From a virus: 23,242 nucleotides of DNA. A program made the translations under genes and the position numbers. Every line of letters begins with the position of its first letter. Within the stretch, counting starts at the first letter, position 1. Under the pieces are notes generated by a model. It had not been told where the DNA came from and did not search any database. It saw only the letters and a list, made by a program, of their open reading frames with translations. Positions 16,628 through 19,688 of the stretch are shown one piece after another. Location: positions 1 through 23,242 of the IMG/VR virus record IMGVR_UViG_3300030450_001297; one strand, 5' to 3'.

Positions 16628-17821
16628 TTAAGCAAACGCAGCAGGCTTAGTACCTGTACCTGCGAATAGTTCAACAGCAGCAGCTGGGTTGAGTGAATCA
16701 GCACCCATTGCCAAGCGACCCAAAATAACATCACCCTGGTAAACCACGGAGATATCACCTGAAGTTACCTGAACCTGAGGTCCGATTGCTTCAACTACAC
16801 CACAAGCTTCTCTTTGGAAGATAAGTCCACAAGAGTTTGCGAACTCTGATGCAGCACCGTATTCGTTAACGGTCTTCTGTCCTGCAGCAGGGGCTGTAAC
16901 AGCATCCTGATCTCCCATAGCCTCAGCAACAAACGAACCGGTGTTACCTGGATCAGCAGTAGCTGGGTCGGTAGCAGCAGAAGCGCCTGAAGAAGGTGCA
17001 TACTTAGTACCAAACTTACTGAAGAACGGTATGTTCATCGACTTGTAAATCTTGATACCTGCAATCTCAACAACACCTTGACCAGATTGCAAAGCTGTGC
17101 CTTGTGCATCACGGTTAATGAGTCCGTTAGATATAACACCAGAGCTAACATCATTGATCAAAGCATAGTACTGACGTGGGTTGAGGACACCTACACGTCC
17201 ATCTTGACTAACGCCTTTCTCATCTAGTGCAGCAGCAGCGTCATAGAAAGCATTTACCAAGAAGCCAGCATTGAGTGCAGCATCAGCATCATTACCTGCA
17301 GTACCAACTTGGATCTGTGTTCCACCTGGTTCTACGAAGTTGGTTGCAGAAACTGGTGAAGCAGAACGAGCAGCTTTAGTAACTGCACGGAAGATACGAC
17401 GGTCATAGTTCTCAGCTAGAGCATAACCAATCTTACGTGAAATTTCTCCACGAAGATCATAGTGTGCAAGAGTTTCATCGAGTTCATATACAAATGCAGA
17501 ACTGATTAAGAGGTCATCACAAGTGATGGTCTTCTCTGCTACTGGAGGTGCACCATCGGTGTTACCCATAATGCTTTGTCCAGGTACATGGAACTCACTC
17601 TTTGTACGACCTGTGAAGATAAACTGTAATGACTTACCGTTTGTCAAGGTCCTACGGGTAACCAAGTCACGTGCAATTGTGTTCCTTTGGAAACCCTTAA
17701 ACATCTCACCGCTAAATAGTTTGAGATATAAATTTCTTCTGGCATCAGTTGTAGATGAAGCCAGATTCGCGGCACCGCCCCAGGTTAACTCACCTTGAGC
17801 AGTAGTATTTTGTTGTGCCAT
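16628..17821 (-). CDS. Major capsid protein, T7 gp10 family (397 aa)
   Basis: The N-terminal segments NLYLKLFSGEMFKGFQRNTI, then RTLTNGKSLQFIFTGRT and a VPGQSIMG loop match the HK97-fold capsid protein of T7-like phages. The middle contains the usual ENYDRRIFRAVTKAARS helix and LNPRQYYALI strand. Length is similar to T7 gp10 forms. Codon use is visibly richer in G and C than in most neighbours, as expected for the most highly expressed phage gene. A 157-base leader with hairpins and an A-run precedes it, and a strong terminator follows, so the gene forms its own high-output unit. No Shine-Dalgarno is visible. Its first five codons (MAQQN) are identical to those of the 42-aa gene upstream. Confidence 0.96.
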   Translation of the reverse strand: MAQQNTTAQGELTWGGAANLASSTTDARRNLYLKLFSGEMFKGFQRNTIARDLVTRRTLTNGKSLQFIFTGRTKSEFHVPGQSIMGNTDGAPPVAEKTITCDDLLISSAFVYELDETLAHYDLRGEISRKIGYALAENYDRRIFRAVTKAARSASPVSATNFVEPGGTQIQVGTAGNDADAALNAGFLVNAFYDAAAALDEKGVSQDGRVGVLNPRQYYALINDVSSGVISNGLINRDAQGTALQSGQGVVEIAGIKIYKSMNIPFFSKFGTKYAPSSGASAATDPATADPGNTGSFVAEAMGDQDAVTAPAAGQKTVNEYGAASEFANSCGLIFQREACGVVEAIGPQVQVTSGDISVVYQGDVILGRLAMGADSLNPAAAVELFAGTGTKPAAFA

Positions 17822-17978: not shown

Positions 17979-18107
17979 TCATAAAGAAGTCAGTGCTTCT
18001 TCTAGATCTAAATCCTCTTTCTCTTCTTTAGGAGGATCTTTAATGTCAGGGATAGTTATGCGAGTTACTTTCGCAAGATTATCCCCTAATGAATTTTGTT
18101 GTGCCAT
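17979..18107 (-). CDS. Small acidic protein of unknown function (42 aa)
   Basis: An ATG at 18105-18107 opens a 42-codon frame beginning MAQQNSLGDNLAKV and ending in an acidic tail (DPPKEEKEDLDLEEALTSL), closed by TGA. Its start overlaps the stop of the beta-barrel-like gene by one base (TAATG), which argues for coupled translation and a real gene. The first 15 bases, ATGGCACAACAAAAT, are identical to the start of the capsid gene. No membrane segment or known domain is visible. It could be a small capsid-associated protein, but that is only suggested by position and the shared N-terminus. Confidence 0.6.
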   Translation of the reverse strand: MAQQNSLGDNLAKVTRITIPDIKDPPKEEKEDLDLEEALTSL

Positions 18108-18472
18108 TAGAAATTCAGTTTTGCACCGAGTTTGGTTGACCATGCTTTGTCATCATCGTCATCTTCTGCAGTTAGTACTGCAATTTCTCCGTAGATGCCA
18201 AGAGCATCTGTTGCACTGACGTTGATACCAGCTTTACCTGATAGACGTGTGTCTGTGTCGTCTCCGTCTTCGGCAACAATAGCCGGGCCTCCTTGAGCAT
18301 ACCATCCGATAGTTTCACCACCACCTTCTACACCAACGTGTAGGTCAGTGGTACGGTTATCATAATCAGAGCCATCGTAATTGGCATTCGATTCTACGTT
18401 TACGTAGGGTCCGGCGAAAGCAGGAGCTGTCGCTGATAGAGTGGCTGCGAGGGCTAGTGCTAGTCTTTTCAT
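18107..18472 (-). CDS. Secreted beta-barrel-like (outer membrane protein-like) small protein, 121 aa
   Basis: Residues 1-20 form a signal peptide (MKRLALALAATLSATAPAFA, cleavage after AFA). The mature ~101 residues alternate short beta strands with Gly/Asp-rich turns (GPYVNVESNANYDGSDYD, TTDLHVGVEGGGETIGWYAQ, DALGIYGEIAVL) and finish AWSTKLGAKLNF. A C-terminal Phe preceded by alternating hydrophobics is the usual signal for outer-membrane barrels. Two acidic loops (EDGDDTDT and EDDDDDK) could bind cations. About 100 residues would give a very small or partial barrel. It lies between the scaffold/hli group and the capsid gene, in a run of one-base overlaps with the 42-aa gene. A role at the infected cell's surface, such as exclusion or transport, is inference; a virion role cannot be excluded. 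Confidence 0.75.
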   Translation of the reverse strand: MKRLALALAATLSATAPAFAGPYVNVESNANYDGSDYDNRTTDLHVGVEGGGETIGWYAQGGPAIVAEDGDDTDTRLSGKAGINVSATDALGIYGEIAVLTAEDDDDDKAWSTKLGAKLNF

Positions 18473-18621
18473 TGTTAATAAAATTTAAATAGTTTTCGTG
18501 TAAGGCACGCCGCGATACTTTAGTTGGATCTTTTTTTGCATTGATCTGCTCCATAGTACCACACCCCCGTTCCATGATGTGGTTTCATGCGTCCCGTTAA
18601 GGATGAACGGACGCGGCGTTA
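18473..18621 (-). other. 149-base structured leader between microprotein and barrel-like gene
   Basis: On the minus strand a GCGTCCGTT/AACGGGACGC stem (18614-18589, nine pairs, one bulge, seven-base loop) is followed within a few bases by ACCACA/TGTGGT (18583-18558) with a 14-base loop containing GGAACGGGGG, then by a run of A and an AT-rich stretch before the barrel-like gene. There is no T-run, so neither stem is a normal terminator. A 22-codon frame (18588-18520, MKPHHGTGVWYYG...) overlaps the second stem. It has no ribosome site, so I do not call it a gene. The region is GC-rich relative to its neighbours, which suggests RNA structure. Confidence 0.4.
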
Positions 18622-18678
18622 TTATTTTTTAGGGGGTCTTCCCTTTTTTGTACCGTAAGTACCTTTACCTTTTGGCAT
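18622..18678 (-). CDS. Basic 18-aa microprotein MPKGKGTYGTKKGRPPKK
   Basis: ATG at 18676-18678 overlaps the hli stop by one base (TAATG) and the frame ends at TAA, giving MPKGKGTYGTKKGRPPKK. From memory, short Lys/Gly-rich proteins of this form occur in many marine cyanophages, which together with the translational coupling makes it more than a chance frame. Eight of 18 residues are Lys or Arg, and the GRPPKK end is reminiscent of an AT-hook, so nucleic acid binding is possible. Function is unknown and I cannot verify conservation from this sequence. Confidence 0.6.
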   Translation of the reverse strand: MPKGKGTYGTKKGRPPKK

Positions 18679-18839
18679 TAGAATAATCCTGGTATAATTT
18701 GTCCAGTAAATATATAGGAACCAAGTGCTGCAACAAACCCGATCATAGCAAGCTGTCCATTGACACGCTCGGCATTCTCATAATAGTTTACATCAAGTAC
18801 TTCTACTTTAGGCTCTGTTGCGTATTTGTTTTGTGGCAT
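18678..18839 (-). CDS. hli: High-light-inducible protein (Hli), 53 aa
   Basis: The frame starts MPQNKYATEPKVEV and contains ENAERVNGQLAMIGFVAALG, the single chlorophyll-binding helix of the Hli/LHC family (ExxNGxxAMxGF), then ends YIFTGQIIPGLF. Residues about 28-48 form the one membrane helix, with Glu and Asn of the motif as expected chlorophyll ligands. Host Hli proteins sit in the thylakoid near photosystem II and dissipate excess energy; phage copies are thought to keep photosynthesis running during infection. The gene lies between scaffold and capsid, the usual cyanopodovirus site, but psbA is not beside it. It follows the scaffold by 57 bases holding a hairpin, and overlaps the next frame by one base. 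Confidence 0.95.
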   Translation of the reverse strand: MPQNKYATEPKVEVLDVNYYENAERVNGQLAMIGFVAALGSYIFTGQIIPGLF

Positions 18840-18896: not shown

Positions 18897-19688
18897 TTAG
18901 AAATTTACATTTGAACGTTCTAATTTTCTCATAACGTCCTGACGATATGCAGGATCTTGATCATAACGAGGATCATTCATTGCTCGAACTAATTCAGCTT
19001 GACTTCTATACTCATCTTTAGGTGTTGATGAAGCTGGCTTGCCAGTTAATAGAGTAGGTTCAGTACCAATGCTATCAGTGTAACGAGAGAACAAAGCCTG
19101 TACAGCGAAGTAAGCTGAAAGTGGATCATTTCTCTGCATGATTTCATCATACATTTCAATGTCACCTTTAGATAGGTTCTCTTTCGCCCATCCTATCATA
19201 GCATTATATTCTTTTTCCCCACCAGCTATACCTTTAAGTCTTTGCTCAGATTCTTTAGTCATAGGCTCAGGCGATTTTACTTTTGATCTTGTAGATCTTT
19301 CTTCTAAATACATCTTAGCAAGTGACTGAGAATCCATACTAGATAATTCATTTAAAGTTTCTTCTTTAAAATTATTACCTTGTGATTCAACCCAAAGCTT
19401 TTCAAGAAATGAAGTATCAATCTTTTCTTCTTGTTCTTTTGGTTCTTCTTGTTCTTTTGATTCTATAAGTTCTACATTTGGTTCTGATTCTACTTCCTTC
19501 GGAGAACCTAATTTTTTTTCTAATGCAACATAAGCTTTCTCTAACTCCTCAGCATTTTGATACTTACCTGCTAAGAGTTGCTCTTGTTTAGCTACCAGTT
19601 CTTCTCCAACTTTTAATGAATCTACTTCATCTGGAGTAAGGTCTGGTGCTTGAGGATCAGCTGCCTCATATGTTAATGTCTCTGCCAT
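18897..19688 (-). CDS. Capsid scaffolding protein, T7 gp9 family (263 aa)
   Basis: The protein is acidic and hydrophilic, directly follows the portal gene and precedes the capsid unit, as T7 gp9 (307 aa) does. It begins with DPQAPDLTPDEVDSLKVGEE, then GKYQNAEELEKAYVALEKKL, a segment seen in many T7-like scaffold proteins. The middle (about 60-105) is a low-complexity Glu/Lys/Gln stretch, and the C-terminus is a basic, Arg-rich helix (YRQDVMRKLERSNVNF) of the sort that contacts the capsid. It guides prohead assembly and leaves before DNA packaging is complete. No Shine-Dalgarno is visible. Confidence 0.9.
   Translation of the reverse strand: MAETLTYEAADPQAPDLTPDEVDSLKVGEELVAKQEQLLAGKYQNAEELEKAYVALEKKLGSPKEVESEPNVELIESKEQEEPKEQEEKIDTSFLEKLWVESQGNNFKEETLNELSSMDSQSLAKMYLEERSTRSKVKSPEPMTKESEQRLKGIAGGEKEYNAMIGWAKENLSKGDIEMYDEIMQRNDPLSAYFAVQALFSRYTDSIGTEPTLLTGKPASSTPKDEYRSQAELVRAMNDPRYDQDPAYRQDVMRKLERSNVNF

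Follow-up and report, generated by a model that had tools for sequence, protein, structure and literature searches.

The window analysed in this work, a stretch of 23,242 nt of DNA from a marine cyanophage (positions 1 to 23,242 of the IMG/VR record IMGVR_UViG_3300030450_001297), contains on its minus strand a group of small genes and an RNA element located between the gene for the scaffold protein (18897-19688; PF05396, phrog_1052), which forms the 5′ flank of this slot, and that for the major capsid protein (16628-17821; PF21703, E 6e-67), which forms its 3′ flank. Read 5′ to 3′ on that strand, the slot comprises hli as cargo, encoding a high-light-inducible protein (18678-18839; phrog_178, E 5e-20), the open reading frame of a very basic small peptide MPKGKGTYGTKKGRPPKK (18622-18678) whose ATG overlaps the hli stop codon, a Glutamine-II riboswitch aptamer (18558-18612), an 18-aa mini-peptide MQKKIQLKYRGVPYTKTI (18485-18541), the gene for a 121-aa outer-membrane-barrel-like protein (18107-18472, here called the barrel gene) and a 42-aa acidic ORF beginning MAQQNSLGDNL (17979-18107), whose ATG overlaps the stop codon of the barrel gene (TAATG). 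The same or a nearly identical copy of the MPKGKGTYGTKKGRPPKK peptide has been found at ten other loci, at varying places of the slot. The 42-aa ORF gave no Pfam match at 0.1 and no PHROGs match at 10; it shares its first five residues (MAQQN) with the capsid protein.

The 121-aa protein is a full-length member of the Pfam family PF24653 (E 1e-42; 145.7 bits against a curated cut-off of 27; profile positions 2-122 of 122 aligned), entitled "Cyanophage outer membrane protein like beta barrel domain" (Phage_OMP), and in PHROGs it belongs to phrog_417, a family of unknown function. The family is also designated DUF680, PhCOG173, gp222 and T4-GC 241, the name PhCOG173 probably going back to Kelly et al. 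2013. The ORF pointed out in the first-pass annotation is real and lies on the minus strand, and comparison with nine relatives revealed purifying selection (dN/dS 0.12-0.17). Relatives were found in 468 phage records, all of them from cyanophages or marine/uncultured phages, which makes PF24653 a very common cyanophage gene with unknown function. Two subtypes, A and B, can be distinguished (encoded by what are called here A genes and B genes), and the window protein represents subtype A. A search of plasmids yielded no copies, and no credible cellular copy was detected, the only candidates being five matches in a genome collection. Host origin of the barrel gene was rejected, since no host homologue was found and these five matches look phage-derived. 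Two of them, on bacterial MAG contigs labelled Actinomycetota and Flavobacteriales (L024 and L028), encode phage portal, scaffold and psbA besides the barrel gene and are thus cyanopodovirus contigs binned with bacteria; the remaining ones also look like phage contigs in bins. A contig filed under Nonlabens xiamenensis (L027; NZ_RMVE01000006.1, 188,235 bases), as long as the genome of a T4-like cyanophage, contains a cyanophage barrel gene as well; it is likely a contamination. In view of its full PF24653 membership the 121-aa protein is not new: it belongs to a known and named, little-studied family, and the novelty lies in its regulatory setting.

The features that had led to the initial proposal of a secreted, barrel-like protein of outer-membrane type are well supported by the present analysis. 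The N-terminus corresponds to a Sec signal peptide (residues 1-20, 18413-18472) with predicted cleavage at AFA before glycine, MKRLALALAATLSATAPAFA|GPY; among 97 relatives A20 does not vary and A18 is retained in 87%, and the segment appears as a low-confidence helix in the AlphaFold model. Matches in tblastn starting at residue 21 were excluded as evidence of cleavage, since low-complexity filtering can produce them. The mature domain of 101 aa (18110-18412) is predicted to consist of six amphipathic strands (residues 22-33, 36-51, 55-68, 74-86, 91-100 and 110-119), placed alike in two AlphaFold predictions, the first with pLDDT 77 and the second, based on 88 sequences, with pLDDT 84.5 and pTM 0.67 (79.5-84.5 over five models). 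The alternation of polar and hydrophobic residues within the strands was equalled in none of 20,000 within-strand shuffles. Residues of the polar face (N25, E27, N29, D43, H45, E49, Q60, K80, E96, K114 and K118) are 98-100% conserved in the family, a pattern consistent with a small barrel whose charged core is packed; conservation concerns the inner face and not the loops, the exposed loops being short acidic stretches. The last eight residues, KLGAKLNF (18110-18133), follow the β-signal pattern recognized by the BAM machinery, polar-x-G-x-x-hydrophobic-x-aromatic. This pattern is shared by 96 out of 100 members of the family, whereas among the 93 frames in the window with 50 aa or more no other one ends in this way. 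The terminal Phe, noticed already in the first-pass annotation, is invariant and closes this signal. Taken from sequence features, location of the protein in the outer membrane is likely.

In a fold search of PDB the best matches were mostly outer-membrane barrels (best E 0.025; none at 0.001 or better), among them the transmembrane domain of OmpA as well as OprF, OmpX and Ail, the last three with TM-scores of 0.55-0.61. Sequence relatives in PDB were rejected as not credible (best E 0.12), and the score against the OMP_b-brl profile PF13505 was 24.0 bits, below its cut-off of 28.7. The protein shares with OmpX, Ail, the N-domain of OprF and the transmembrane domain of OmpA the alternating strands, the polar core and the C-terminal Phe closing a β-signal, but each of these forms a closed barrel of eight transmembrane strands whereas both models of the window protein have six. 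To our knowledge there is no natural closed outer-membrane barrel with as few as six strands; the protein is barrel-like in its alternating strands and its β-signal, while a closed monomer would go beyond the six-strand models. The packed charged interior makes a wide pore in a monomer unlikely, and the active form may be a dimer or a complex with a partner.

The position of the gene between scaffold and capsid genes, pointed out in the first-pass annotation, is confirmed and general: it was found in 31 of the 31 non-identical contigs showing both flanks. Within the slot of these contigs the barrel gene stands alone or together with hli and psbA, in varying orders. The cultured phages NATL2A-133 and P-SSP10 carry it in the slot, the model podovirus P-SSP7 has hli and psbA there and lacks the barrel gene, and P-SSP2 has a diverged paralogue. 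The claim that such a gene is foreign to the T7 plan holds for T7 itself; among T7-like cyanophages, whose accessory slot holds hli and psbA, it is ordinary. Since this slot is the accessory-gene site of T7-like cyanophages, the position is no mark of a head protein, and the barrel gene is an accessory gene lying in the capsid operon by position alone. The neighbourhood of head genes could also be taken to mean that the product is a minor virion protein, decorating the head or associated with the tail, with an incidental barrel-like fold; two peptides of a DUF680 protein (25% coverage, subtype not stated) have indeed been detected by LC-MS in purified virions of the myovirus S-SZBM1 (PMC9146016). 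Membrane carry-over in particle preparations offers a simple alternative for that finding, and in a study of S-TIM4 the DUF680 gene was classified as nonstructural (PMC6224464). Against this explanation, which we regard as unlikely, stand also the signal peptide and the β-signal, the shifting position of the gene relative to hli and psbA, its absence from P-SSP7 and, in the myoviruses viewed, its location mostly far from the head genes. The barrel protein is not mentioned in the paper on the P-SCSP1u structure.

The first-pass annotation had overlooked the control region preceding the barrel gene, composed of the riboswitch and the mini-peptide. The aptamer, the sole Rfam match in the window, aligned to RF01704 over model positions 1-60 of 60 (55.4 bits against a gathering threshold of 33; E 4e-11). 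It ends 16 nt before the MQKKIQLKYRGVPYTKTI ORF, whose stop codon lies 12 nt before the barrel start. In front of the riboswitch, a simple scan for sigma-70 sites gave no promoter that was credible. With the covariance model, RF01704 was detected, starting 121-184 nt upstream of the barrel gene, in 48 of 62 podovirus loci, which had been picked for having upstream sequence and include some near-identical ones (locus L042 is counted among the 48). The order riboswitch-peptide-barrel gene recurs in podovirus loci, those of P-SSP10 and NATL2A-133 included, with peptides of 15-36 aa sharing a YRG..Y core. Among relatives of the window peptide the conserved part varies at codon positions 1, 2 and 3 by 0.13, 0.09 and 0.36, respectively, the excess of third-position changes being as expected of a translated peptide. 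The Glutamine-II motif, also named Downstream-peptide, was originally described with short peptides downstream (PMC2864571), an arrangement to which the window conforms in its full-model alignment and in the peptide that comes next. The motif has been described in front of short ORFs, of DUF4278 type or other, whereas here an outer-membrane-protein gene follows closely after the peptide; the PF24653 family entry, for its part, covers the protein alone. No report of a Glutamine-II riboswitch before an outer-membrane protein gene was found in the literature searched. Relatives of the peptide containing YRGVPYTKTI resemble, weakly, the end of DUF4278: the 20-aa and 36-aa relatives scored 15.0 and 14.7 bits, below the PF14105 cut-off of 25.3 (E 0.033 for the former), and the 18-aa peptide of the window is too short to scan. 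Possibly, these peptides are phage-made mini-versions of host nitrogen regulators.

In type-2 glutamine riboswitches, which in picocyanobacteria are linked to DUF4278 genes, binding of glutamine activates expression (PMC6316151). This classical association would suit a riboswitch that serves the mini-peptide only, with the barrel gene as a read-through passenger free of glutamine control, and P-SSP7 and P-SSP2 indeed retain riboswitch and peptide with no barrel gene behind them. In the podovirus loci read, the window included, peptide stop and barrel start are 0-12 nt apart, which favours translational coupling instead; we therefore consider the passenger arrangement a minority possibility, and glutamine gating of the barrel gene, as judged from the arrangement of the elements, probable. 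Such gating is not universal, since about one podovirus locus in five has the barrel gene in front of psbA and not behind the riboswitch; the placement of the riboswitch in this order can be read only where the contig reaches it, as in L076 and L078, in which the riboswitch comes after psbA. In P-SSP7 (L107:20522-20575) and P-SSP2 (L109:5581-5634) the riboswitch and a YRG peptide are located shortly before the capsid gene, and the riboswitch may thus also affect capsid expression.

A relation to nutrients is further indicated by the paralogues in myoviruses. In P-SSM2, S-SM2, S-SM1, S-TIM5 and S-8S55 a PF24653 gene is the immediate upstream neighbour of pstS, which may or may not be accompanied by phoA; the A gene, the B gene and pstS are consecutive in P-SSM2, S-SM2 and S-TIM5, and phoA follows pstS in S-SM2 and S-SM1. 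Of the two P-SSM2 proteins, PSSM2_246 belongs to the subtype of the window protein (48% identity) and PSSM2_247 to the second one (27% identity); unlike the window gene, neither is preceded by RF01704. A two-part Pho-box-like repeat was detected upstream of the B gene in P-SSM2 and S-TIM5 (shuffle p 0.003 and 0.007) and, weaker, in S-SM1, and none was found before the A genes; as 17 leaders were tested, these p values are suggestive only. In cells starved of phosphate, the P-SSM2 B gene (g247) is presumably induced along with pstS. For the window gene, Pho control was rejected, its leader being without a pho box. DUF680 and pstS are among the phage genes over-represented at BATS (subtype not stated; PMC3686209), and when S-TIM4 was evolved on WH8102 with nutrients replete, its DUF680 gene (subtype not stated) was hit in all lines, by 13 mutations of which many were disruptive (PMC6224464). 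The phosphate-responsive gene S-PM2d169, of similar size (PMC10976474), was ruled out as a relative: it belongs to a different cluster, GC 355, and no PF24653 member was found in S-PM2, so that this dataset has no bearing on the barrel gene. The paralogues adjoining pstS and phoA, the glutamine riboswitch in the window and the loss in one nutrient-replete evolution experiment together give indirect support to nutrient adaptation.

What can be read from the DNA and its translation is thus a signal peptide, six predicted amphipathic strands whose polar/charged inner face is invariant, a β-signal, membership of PF24653, a riboswitch with a mini-peptide upstream and a place in the hli/psbA slot. 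From these features we think it somewhat probable that the gene encodes a nutrient-gated small outer-membrane protein that the phage contributes to the host cell in the course of infection. Binding of glutamine to the riboswitch would allow translation of the mini-peptide and of the coupled barrel gene, the Sec and BAM machineries of the host would place the product in the outer membrane, and the protein, perhaps as a dimer or with a partner, would adjust the envelope of the infected cell to its nutrient state; nutrient acquisition or balance would be its most likely part. Small phage-encoded surface proteins that block superinfection exist in other phages, and an outer-membrane-type protein produced during infection might likewise mask or alter a receptor. 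Such exclusion seems quite improbable here, because the exposed loops are short and acidic, the inner face and not the loops is the conserved side, and one would not expect an exclusion factor to be regulated in connection with nutrients. Help with lysis or release by weakening of the outer membrane would agree with the location in the capsid operon, which suggests late synthesis, but no known lysis gene adjoins the barrel gene in the window, and the myovirus homologues have promoter-like leaders of their own and nrdC, Hsp20 and pstS as neighbours; we give this role very little credence. Nothing favours either the superinfection block or lysis, both raised in the first-pass annotation, over nutrient adaptation.

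Upstream of cyanomyovirus A genes RF01704 was not found, and these genes are preceded by a different leader, which gave no Rfam match and consists of a hairpin with a variable stem and a GUCGA loop, a spacer ending in CAUC and a second hairpin, UGCGGG-UAACCAU-UCCGCA, whose end lies some 20-25 nt upstream of the A-gene start. When viral contigs were scanned with a DNA pattern for this second hairpin, 119 places were found, and the barrel gene came next in all 113 with enough sequence; the first stem was at least 5 bp long in 112 of the 119 (13 of 119 after shuffling), with 36 different stems. In an alignment of 41 leaders 93.3% of the cells are paired; two-sided changes occur at 9 of 12 pairs, and covariation scores 0.470, as compared with 0.161 for shuffled and at most 0.153 for slid structures. 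With a covariance model, each of nine myovirus genomes yielded a single copy, located in every case immediately in front of the A gene (the P-SSM2 match being weak, E 0.006); no match was obtained in S-PM2, from which the barrel gene is absent, or in the podoviruses examined. By these comparative criteria there is good support for the myovirus leader as a candidate new structured RNA. The presence of dedicated RNA leaders in both phage types argues for a conditional rather than a structural role of the protein. We tentatively suggest, as something short of an even chance, that two unrelated cyanophage lineages have placed the same outer-membrane-protein gene under different structured RNAs, the Glutamine-II riboswitch with its DUF4278-like peptide in podoviruses and the two-hairpin leader, present once per genome and only there, in myoviruses, thereby connecting nutrient sensing with remodelling of the outer membrane; the myovirus leader would then represent a hitherto undescribed regulatory RNA, perhaps a riboswitch. 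If so, with glutamine as the signal in podoviruses and another one in myoviruses, these phages would read the nutrient state of the host by RNA and act on the outer membrane, a compartment that studies of phage metabolic genes have seldom taken into account.

Sub-threshold Glutamine-II matches (20-30 bits) occur once per genome in several myoviruses, far from the barrel gene (W01, W02, W03 and W06-W10), and are perhaps a diverged aptamer. An example of the two-hairpin leader (model R1), which was encountered at about 120 loci in all, is located in S-SM2 at L023:2864-2913 (GU071095.1 163366-163415). In S-SM1 the leader match revealed a previously unseen A gene, whose product was confirmed as PF24653.
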